From positions 1-49,406 of the forward strand of contig CACPLR010000007.1 of assembly GCA_902634885.1 (NCBI GenBank): 49,406 nt of DNA. Direction: 5' to 3'. Origin of the DNA: an uncultured Pelagibacteraceae bacterium (GTDB lineage: Bacteria; Pseudomonadota; Alphaproteobacteria; Pelagibacterales; Pelagibacteraceae). Position 1 is the stretch's first letter. Each line of letters opens with the position of its first letter. Of this stretch, positions 37,719 to 39,554 are shown piece by piece. The notes beneath the pieces are model-generated. The model had not been told where the DNA came from. It was given only the letters and a program-made list of their open reading frames with translations, and made no database searches. The position numbers and the translations under genes are program-made.

Positions 37719-38315
37719 TTATTTCTCTATTAAAAAAATACCTAATTGCGATTCTAAATTTCTCCATGCTAAATTTTTAGCACTTAAATTTAGAGTTTTA
37801 TCATTTTTTAACGCTAAAGATTTAAAAATTTTTATTTCTCTTTTTGAACAAAAATTGAAAAAATCCCTTAAAGTGCACATATGCAAATTAGGTGTATTAT
37901 ACCATTCATTAGGAAGGTTTTCTGTAACTGGCATTGTGCCTTTAATTAATAAATTAAGACGAACTTTCCAGTAACCAAAGTTTGGTATAGTAACAATTGC
38001 TTTTTTACCAACTCGCAAAAGCTCAGAGATAACTTTTTCAGGATCTAAGAAAGCTTGAAGCGTTTGACTTAATATAACAAAATCGAATGAATTATTTGGG
38101 AATTGTTGTAGGTCATTTTCTGCATTTCCCTCTACGACAGTCAAACCTTTTGATAGGCAATTTTGAACCCTATTTTTTGAAATTTCTAAACCACGTATTT
38201 TAGAAGTTTTATTATCCTTAAGAAACTTCATTAATTCTCCATCGCCACATCCAACATCTAAAACTTTGGAATTTTGTAATATAAGCTCAGAAATTACTTT
38301 AAATTCTTTTTTCAT
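37719..38315 (-). CDS. metW: Methionine biosynthesis protein MetW
   Basis: SAM-dependent-methyltransferase-fold protein that pairs with MetX. The SAM-binding motif VLDVGCGDGELMKFL is near residue 18, then RGLEISKNRVQ near 38, SFDFVILSQTLQ near 77 and VTIPNFGYWKVR near 109. Those last two segments are typical of MetW. It overlaps metX by 17 bases, consistent with tight metX-metW coupling known in proteobacteria. Its role in assisting MetX is established for some relatives; its activity here is inferred. Length 198. Confidence 0.93.
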   Translation of the reverse strand: MKKEFKVISELILQNSKVLDVGCGDGELMKFLKDNKTSKIRGLEISKNRVQNCLSKGLTVVEGNAENDLQQFPNNSFDFVILSQTLQAFLDPEKVISELLRVGKKAIVTIPNFGYWKVRLNLLIKGTMPVTENLPNEWYNTPNLHMCTLRDFFNFCSKREIKIFKSLALKNDKTLNLSAKNLAWRNLESQLGIFLIEK

Positions 38316-39432
38316 TTACAGTTTTATAGTTTGTTTTTAAATAGTTCCCTAAAGTATCTAAAAAATCTGGTACATCTAAAAGAAATGAATCGTGTCCTTT
38401 GTCAGACTCTATCTCTACAAAACCAACATCTGTACCAATTGCGTTAAGCGCTATAACTATCTCTCTATTTTCAGCAGTTGGATATAGCCAATCTGAAGTG
38501 AATGAAATTACAAAAAATTTGGAAGTCGTCTTACTGAAAGCAGCTGATAGATTACCATTAAATTGTTTTGATAAATCGAAGTAATCCATTGCTCTAGTTA
38601 TATACAAGTAACTATTTGCATCAAACCTATCTACAAATACTGATCCTTGGTATCTGAGATAACTTTCAATTTGAAAATCAGCATCAAAACTAAATTTTAA
38701 ATCATCTCTCTCTTGTAACTTTCTACCAAATTTTTCCTGGAGACCTTTTTTCGACAAGTAAGTAATATGTGCCGCCATTCTAGCAACAGCCAAACCTTTA
38801 TCAGGACTTGTTTTATTTTGTTCATACAAACCATTTTTCCAATTAGTATCCGCAAGTATTGCTTGTCTCCCAAGTTCATTGAATGCAATATTTTGTGCGG
38901 AATGACTTGATGTACAGGCAATCGGTATTGCAATATGTGCTTTATCTGGAAAATTCGAAACAAATTGTAATACCTGCATACCACCCATTGACCCACCGAT
39001 AACTGCAAATAATTTATCTATTTTAAAGTGCTCTAGTAGATTGTATTGAGCATTAACCATATCATTAATTGTTATGACTGGAAAATTTGTCCCTATGGGT
39101 TTGCCTGTTTCCTCATTTATTGTACTTGGACCATATGAACCCATACATCCCCCAATTACGTTAGCGCATATGACAAAAAATTGCTCTGTATCAATAGCTT
39201 TACCTGATCCAAGCGCGTAACTCCACCAGCCATCTTTATTTGTAATAGGATTTTTTCCGGCAGCAAATTGATCACCTGTCAATGCATGAAATACTAAAAT
39301 AGCATTATCTTTTTTTTCGTTTAGAGTCCCATATGTCTCATATGAAATTGGAAAATTATAAATTTCTTTTCCACAATCTAATTTCTGTGGCTTTGTTATT
39401 ATAATATTTTTTACCTGTTTTAACTTATTCAT
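38299..39432 (-). CDS. metX: Homoserine O-acyltransferase MetX
   Basis: Acylates homoserine (usually with acetyl-CoA) to give the substrate for sulfur addition in methionine synthesis. It has the alpha/beta-hydrolase fold with nucleophile Ser148 in GGSMGGMQVLQF, an Asp in TSDWLYP near 313 and a His in KGHDSFLLD near 348. ALTGDQFAAG near 50 and NVIGGCMGSYGP near 91 are characteristic of MetX. 377 residues. It is the first gene after a SAM-II riboswitch. Some MetX proteins use succinyl-CoA; that cannot be decided here. Confidence 0.95.
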   Translation of the reverse strand: MNKLKQVKNIIITKPQKLDCGKEIYNFPISYETYGTLNEKKDNAILVFHALTGDQFAAGKNPITNKDGWWSYALGSGKAIDTEQFFVICANVIGGCMGSYGPSTINEETGKPIGTNFPVITINDMVNAQYNLLEHFKIDKLFAVIGGSMGGMQVLQFVSNFPDKAHIAIPIACTSSHSAQNIAFNELGRQAILADTNWKNGLYEQNKTSPDKGLAVARMAAHITYLSKKGLQEKFGRKLQERDDLKFSFDADFQIESYLRYQGSVFVDRFDANSYLYITRAMDYFDLSKQFNGNLSAAFSKTTSKFFVISFTSDWLYPTAENREIVIALNAIGTDVGFVEIESDKGHDSFLLDVPDFLDTLGNYLKTNYKTVNEKRI

Positions 39433-39468
39433 AATTAATTGCAGATTTAACGAATTGAGAGGTAAAAA

Positions 39469-39520
39469 ACTTGTTTAGCAGTTTTTTTATAGCGCTCGCA
39501 ATTCAGTTTAAATCAGCGCA
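39469..39520 (-). ncRNA. SAM-II riboswitch upstream of metX
   Basis: On the minus strand the segment GCGCTGATTTAAACTG (from 39518) continues with AATTGCGAGCGC (to 39491) and then CTGCTAAACAAG (39482-39471). This matches the well-known SAM-II pattern GCGCUGAUUUAA...UUGCAAGCGC followed by a GCUAAA-type 3' strand of the pseudoknot. GCGCT and AGCGC can form stem P1. SAM-II commonly precedes metX or metA in alphaproteobacteria and blocks translation when SAM binds. It ends about 37 bases before the metX ATG, where no clear terminator is seen, so translational control or another mechanism is likely. Boundaries are approximate. Confidence 0.88.
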
Positions 39521-39525
39521 GAAAA

Positions 39526-39554
39526 CTTTTACAAGATAGGTATTTACATGTCAA
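39526..39554 (-). promoter_or_regulatory. Promoter for the metX operon
   Basis: On the minus strand TTGACA (39554-39549), a perfect -35 box, is followed by 17 bases and TAAAAG (39531-39526), a 4/6 match to a -10 box. Predicted transcription starts near 39519, at the 5' edge of the SAM-II aptamer. Confidence 0.65.

Follow-up and report, generated by a model that had tools for sequence, protein, structure and literature searches.

The DNA analysed here, referred to as the window, is a stretch of 49,406 nucleotides that carries metX, encoding homoserine O-acetyltransferase, on the minus strand (38299–39432, with the ATG at 39432–39430; NCBIfam NF001209, 505.8 bits against a cutoff of 331). metW lies downstream of metX, and hisC is divergent. 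The source is a SAR11 genome, and the closest named relatives of its MetX come from uncultured Pelagibacteraceae (96–97% identity). Upstream of metX–metW, in a methionine/SAM gene context, the minus strand carries a SAM-II-type aptamer. Read 5′ to 3′ along this strand, the leader consists of TTGACA (39554–39549), 17 nt, TAAAAG (39531–39526), 6 nt, GCGCTGATTTAAACTGAATTGCGAGCGC, an A-run, GCTAAACAAG and TTTTTT, with 37 nt separating the pseudoknot strand from the metX AUG.

The P1 helix of the aptamer is formed by GCGCT (39515–39519, minus strand, as are all parts listed below) and AGCGC (39492–39496), as indicated by the sequence, the Rfam alignment and a comparison of P1 among relatives. Across 57 distinct SAR11 aptamers, chosen to keep at least four of the five P1 pairs, the last pair is T-A (43), T-G (5) or C-G (9), and the first and second pairs are each broken in three. 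L1 together with the P2 5′ strand (GATTTAAACTGAATTGC, 39498–39514) is assigned from the RF00521 alignment. The L3 A-run comprises seven A residues (39482–39488), with runs of 5–8 in the 117 leaders described below. The P2 3′ strand GCTAAACAAG (39470–39479) is assigned from the Rfam alignment and relatives; the leader search pattern itself contains GCTAAA, so conservation of this motif in relatives is preselected.

The initial annotation had recognized a SAM-II core in this leader, and Rfam searches agree. In E-value mode, SAM_alpha (RF00521) matched 39529–39454 with 28.7 bits (E = 1.3e-4) and SAM-II (RF01726) matched 39525–39465 with 27.0 bits (E = 0.0045). The alignments cover both models in full (RF00521 1–79, RF01726 1–60), and P1 and the pseudoknot core with conserved L1 and the GCTAAA strand are present. 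The covariance search that the annotation had proposed as a check therefore returned the expected models, yet at scores below their gathering cutoffs of 36 (RF00521) and 44 bits (RF01726), and a gathering-mode scan of the window listed nothing. The gathering cutoff is a curator’s threshold rather than a structural feature; for RF00521 it was exceeded in 30 of 101 genomes, every one from the sister family. Genome-wide, the metX site is the top RF00521 match (E = 8e-5) but comes only second for RF01726, where a match inside a coding sequence scores 0.1 bit higher. An RF01726 match at C1:51194 and an RF00521 match at C18:10998, both within open reading frames, were taken as chance.

No RF00521 match at E ≤ 0.01 occurred in 14 control genomes. 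At looser thresholds the controls do match (RF00521 at E ≤ 10 in 14/14, RF01726 at E ≤ 1 in 8/14), so the weight rests on position and recurrence. Comparing positions by eye among the 101 relatives, we found an RF00521 match (E ≤ 0.01) adjoining metX in 51/51 same-genus and 34/35 sister-family genomes that have metX (85/86 in total), the single exception being a sister-family genome whose metX sits at the edge of its contig. Among genera of the family that are further removed from the window’s, a metX leader of the SAM-II kind is absent at 4 of 27 metX loci. SAM-V, or a SAM-II/SAM-V tandem, was also considered at metX and rejected, as RF01826 gave no match at the locus at E values up to 10 and its best match in the genome (E = 0.94) lies elsewhere. 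The metX leader is almost certainly a genuine SAM-II aptamer, predicted from its sequence to bind SAM. A SAM-II element upstream of SAR11 metX, in strain HTCC1062, was reported in 2009 (PMC2704228).

Upstream of the aptamer, the initial annotation had placed a TTGACA-N17-TAAAAG promoter and an RNA start near 39519, at the very edge of the aptamer; both promoter elements are there in the sequence and recur in relatives. The −35 element TTGACA (39549–39554, minus strand) is found in 117/117 distinct leaders, and the −10-like hexamer TAAAAG (39526–39531, minus strand), 17 nt after the −35 element, reads TAnnnn in the same 117. Position 39519 (minus strand) is the first P1 base and is the start predicted from the position of the promoter. 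The distance from TTGACA to P1 is identical in 114 of the 117 leaders and off by one base in three, a constancy that supports an RNA start at the first P1 base. A consensus promoter scan, which demands a final T in the −10 element, did not list the site; support for this predicted promoter is comparative and comes from leader conservation. Transcription of metX very probably begins at P1 or no more than one or two bases from it. A start at the aptamer edge is usual for the SAM-II class: Corbino and colleagues (2005, PMC1273637) noted that candidate start sites are mostly found a few nucleotides upstream of P1. Both the SAM-II aptamer before SAR11 metX (2009) and the promoter just before P1 (2005) are thus already published.

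To describe what follows the aptamer, leaders were collected with a core pattern allowing up to two substitutions, which recovered 129 of 130 loci of the window’s genus type; the leader L101 starts at metX, and L230 was dropped (32% identity, not metX). Merging identical leaders, including those of the window, its relatives and named genomes, reduced the 129 to 117, of which L058 was not parsed. Between the aptamer and metX, a GC-rich hairpin with a U-run behind it was found in 0/117 of these leaders, in a test with a longer loop and a looser core that was applied identically to the sister family. The earlier statement that no obvious terminator separates aptamer and metX therefore extends to the genus. 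What does follow GCTAAA is a U-run of 5–9 T in the 116 parsed leaders, mostly 7–8, with six in the window (39464–39469, minus strand), directly after the pseudoknot strand. Behind it lies a conserved CTCnCAATTC that complements the aptamer strand GAATTGCGAG (39495–39504, minus strand), nearly always with one defect. The window’s version, CTCTCAATTC (39452–39461, minus strand), is complementary to 39504–39495 at nine of ten positions. The two strands are supported by folding and genome patterns, the first also by its sequence and the second by the leaders. In all, 116/117 leaders fit a pattern that itself asks for the complementary strand with at most two substitutions, and L058 likewise has CTCACAATTC.

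The defect itself is maintained. Among 116 leaders, the variable base is A in 92 (CTCACAATTC), T in 13 (CTCTCAATTC), deleted in six (CTCCAATTC) and C in two (CTCCCAATTC); three further variants occur once each with other defects, and a perfect complement was found in 0/116. Where the variable base is G, as in L025 (CTAGCAATTC) and L151 (CTCGCATAATTC), another defect is present instead. Whole-genome patterns gave the same picture: of 397 family genomes, 135 carry the imperfect version, every one of them in a single genus, and 0/397 the perfect version. A metX tree built from 116 rows requires at least 13 changes of the variable base, never to a clean G; this tree is weakly resolved, with strong support for 26 of its 113 inner branches.

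Folding with RNAfold, a model in which pseudoknot and SAM are ignored, was applied singly to nine leaders of the window’s type and one other. The minimum-energy fold is the anti-aptamer in eight of the nine, and L029 keeps P1. In the 107 leaders whose variable base is A, the inner helix has a mean probability of 0.94, rising to 1.00 when this base is set to G; in the window it is 0.998 either way. The mismatch thus matters little in a model without pseudoknot or SAM, and a tuning role for it is something we infer. As GAATTGCGAG hardly varies, the anti-aptamer helix is not demonstrable by covariation. In these folds the L3 A-run and the U-run pair with each other. This pairing within the anti-aptamer hairpin is possibly the only reason why the U-run is kept, and conservation of the U-run is therefore no proof of termination by itself; tabulating the lengths of the two runs against each other did not separate the two roles. 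An outer helix between the 5′ strand of P1 and the spacer near the AUG was attractive in RNAfold, but reached p ≤ 0.05 in only 5/117 leaders. Since it did not outperform shuffled spacers in most leaders, it is regarded as optional; in the window it would pair TTAAATC (39444–39450, minus strand) with GATTTAA of the aptamer (p = 0.15). Extra pairing closer to the AUG occurs in some clades. On balance, the CTCnCAATTC strand is probably an anti-aptamer.

Leaders from other lineages carry different platforms. Searching 34 genomes from other genera of the family gave 28 matches, one of which was dropped as not metX. At 13 of the remaining 27 metX loci the aptamer is followed by a canonical terminator, GCCCAGTTTAGCTGGGC or a variant and then 8–9 T, whose TTTAGCT (or variant) complements AGCTAAA of the P2 strand. 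At another 10 of the 27 the P2 strand contains GAGG or AAGG, and the ATG is preceded by a short hairpin whose sequence varies, recognized by a stem test in five and by eye in the rest. In the metX SAM-II leaders L216, L218–L220 and L224–L229, whose P2 strand has one of these two motifs, this varying hairpin looks as if it bridged the Shine-Dalgarno (SD) motif to the start codon. A terminator was also present in 11/11 additional leaders that a core pattern had picked out in a single genus (it matched 11 of 151 genomes, one of the 11 being already among the 27), and in 20/20 sister-family leaders, fetched from 20 of 35 metX genomes. Terminators predominate among the sister lineages examined, though in some of these the aptamer contains an SD. 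The genera nearest by MetX identity (71–73%) are of the terminator type, and the five nearest other-genus leaders have 5–7 T behind the aptamer. Most simply, these sequences suggest that the terminator was lost in the window’s genus, in which the anti-aptamer arose and the U-run became somewhat longer.

The terminator type includes a well-known RNA. Wild-type SAM-II RNA is given as a 52-mer in PMC8494917. The exact 52-mer occurs in two sister-genus genomes (L234 and L236), where it is followed by GAT, GCCCAGTTTAGCTGGGC, nine T, GG and the metX ATG, leaving 3 nt between the 52-mer and an intrinsic terminator. We take this 52-mer to be the crystallized metX RNA. The crystallized metX riboswitch is called a rare translational SAM-II in PMC6061858; the surroundings of the 52-mer suggest transcription attenuation, and perhaps control of translation too.

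SAM-II-like elements were also seen before other genes. The window’s own genome has a second one on the plus strand (C8:22275–22358; L002:1501–1584), with an AGTCC/GGACT P1, ACTTGCT, CGCTAAAGGAGG and then ATG. The gene downstream of it, for a 55-aa protein without a Pfam match above cutoff, is itself followed by a tRNA-like gene and genes resembling apt and mtaP by eye. The 55-aa protein occurs in 14 of 101 genomes and the element at 13 of 15 loci, with changes of P1 pairs (for example GTCT/AGAC in L174). In L243, L244 and L245, a SAM-II element and terminator are followed by a SAM-V-like stretch, as judged by eye; such second stretches were seen in relatives only before a gene other than metX. 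In L243 and L244 the tandem precedes a gene for a protein containing GPVICAEGFLFEIE, presumably BhmT, and we take the arrangement to be the tandem known from HTCC1062. No GPVICAEGFLFEIE-type gene was read downstream in L245, and L242 has a SAM-II core before the GPVICAEGFLFEIE-protein gene without a terminator of the L243/L244 type. Finally, L186, L188 and L190, from other SAR11 genera, carry SAM-II with a terminator in which GCTAAAGCG faces CGCTTTAGC or a variant; the gene behind it seems to us to resemble metF.

We propose the following mechanism for the window’s genus. Without SAM, GAAUUGcGAG of the aptamer in the finished leader would pair in the cell with the downstream CUCnCAAUUC, forming an anti-aptamer hairpin that encloses the A-run/U-run helix and blocks the pseudoknot, so that metX would be expressed. 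With SAM, the P2 pseudoknot would form during transcription and abut the run of six U (usually 7–8 in relatives). Transcription would then stop at the U-run, with the ligand-stabilized pseudoknot replacing the lost terminator hairpin. This is the OFF step we favour, with some hesitation and at distinctly less than an even chance; the A/U-rich pseudoknot stem beside the U-run, unlike a classical GC terminator stem, counts against it. Because the downstream strand is not transcribed until the polymerase is past the U-run, it would serve as a latch committing read-through RNA to ON, and the kept mismatch may leave this latch weak enough for SAM to compete. Taken as a whole, from a start at or near P1 through the SAM-free hairpin and the SAM-dependent OFF step at the U-run to the latch, the explanation falls just short of an even chance in our judgement. 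The evolutionary statement that one SAR11 genus replaced the metX SAM-II terminator by a SAM-bound pseudoknot and U-run acting as terminator, with a selectively imperfect anti-aptamer locking read-through RNA ON, is more ambitious, and we regard it as rather unlikely in that full form.

Control of translation, in which the SAM-bound aptamer would reduce ribosome loading on metX and a terminator would be unneeded, had been suggested by the initial annotation from the lack of a terminator. The absence holds in 117/117 leaders and suits such control; the translational step itself fares less well. An SD (AGGA, GGAG or GAGG) 4–20 nt before the start codon, assigned by rule as the first ATG after CAATTC (one of the 117 leaders has no ATG in the stretch), was found in 0/117 leaders, and none was found in the P2 3′ strand of the 80 parsed metX leaders (of 81) of the window’s genus. 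The 37 nt between pseudoknot strand and AUG in the window also count against it. Opening energies were calculated for 113 of the 117 leaders, the bound-like state being represented by folding from the U-run onward only. Opening AUG−15 to +12 costs on average 6.3 kcal/mol in the free fold against 4.8 in the bound-like state, and the free fold is costlier by more than 0.5 kcal/mol in 71/113 leaders (109/113 for AUG−35 to +12). For occlusion of the start site by SAM these energies have the wrong sign on average; with no SD and an AUG region predicted to be more open in the bound-like state, such occlusion is not indicated. In favour of translational control, 42/113 leaders show no clear excess in the cost of opening the AUG region in the free fold, and in genera g10, g12 and g15 the P2 strand of the metX aptamer contains GAGG or AAGG. 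The second SAM-II-like element of the genome moreover has GGAGG in its P2 strand, three bases before the ATG, so translational use probably exists in the window’s genus. For metX we consider it doubtful.

SAM could instead control decay. Binding would free the U-rich CUCnCAAUUC stretch for RNase E, whereas the SAM-free hairpin would hide it and the paired 5′ end would protect the mRNA. Such RNase E cleavage logic is known from other riboswitches, the sign is right for switching metX off, the freed stretch is A/U-rich and P1 at the 5′ end fits. The sequence nevertheless holds nothing specific for RNase E, and we judge this reading improbable. A conserved CTCnCAATTC kept for some other reason (a protein or DNA site, or another RNA contact), with the anti-aptamer never forming and the aptamer acting alone, would account for the lack of covariation and for the defect always being kept, and a protein could bind the U-run and the strand; this reading is similarly improbable given the 9/10 complementarity to the aptamer core, the dominance of the predicted helix and the persistence of a defect even with G at the variable base in L025 and L151.

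Overall, the original SAM-II observation at metX was right and largely known, its translational inference is doubtful, and the platform is a new variant. Within the open-licence literature, we found no report joining SAM-II with an anti-aptamer, nor one joining the SAM-II pseudoknot, an intrinsic terminator and a U-tract; the expression platform of the window’s genus, with the terminator gone and a U-run and anti-aptamer strand instead, looks new. Across the SAR11 family, one aptamer and promoter have been kept with three platforms (a terminator; an SD with a hairpin before the AUG; an anti-aptamer with a U-run), a natural series for the study of riboswitch platform evolution. The comparison is relevant, too, to the RNA that serves as the standard SAM-II model, as the “translational” 52-mer (PMC6061858 and PMC8494917) stands directly before an intrinsic terminator in two sister-genus genomes.

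Among known systems, SAM-V (RF01826) has a similar pseudoknot and SAM pocket (PMC6061858) and also occurs in SAR11; it differs in giving no match at the window’s metX. In Sinorhizobium meliloti (S. meliloti), the SAM-II platform differs between genes (PMC9373788): metZ is controlled transcriptionally and has a terminator, and metA is controlled translationally at a distance and has an SD in the riboswitch, whereas the window’s metX has neither. Candidatus Pelagibacter ubique HTCC1062 metX (SAR11_0217) shares gene, aptamer class and bacterial group with the window, and the excerpts of PMC2704228 and PMC5069961 at hand describe neither its platform nor a downstream complementary strand. The metX SAM-II of Sargasso Sea metagenomes, the crystallized RNA, has a homologous leader in a sister SAR11 genus with the same promoter and core; that type runs from the 52-mer through 3 nt into an intrinsic terminator, in contrast to the window’s version, which lacks one. 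With the SAM-II/SAM_alpha class in general (RF00521, RF01726), the window’s leader shares P1, the H-type pseudoknot core GATTT..TTGC..GCTAAA, the methionine gene downstream and the promoter just before P1 (PMC1273637). It differs from the class in scoring below both gathering cutoffs at metX and in belonging to a genus that, without terminator or SD, has a conserved anti-aptamer strand.
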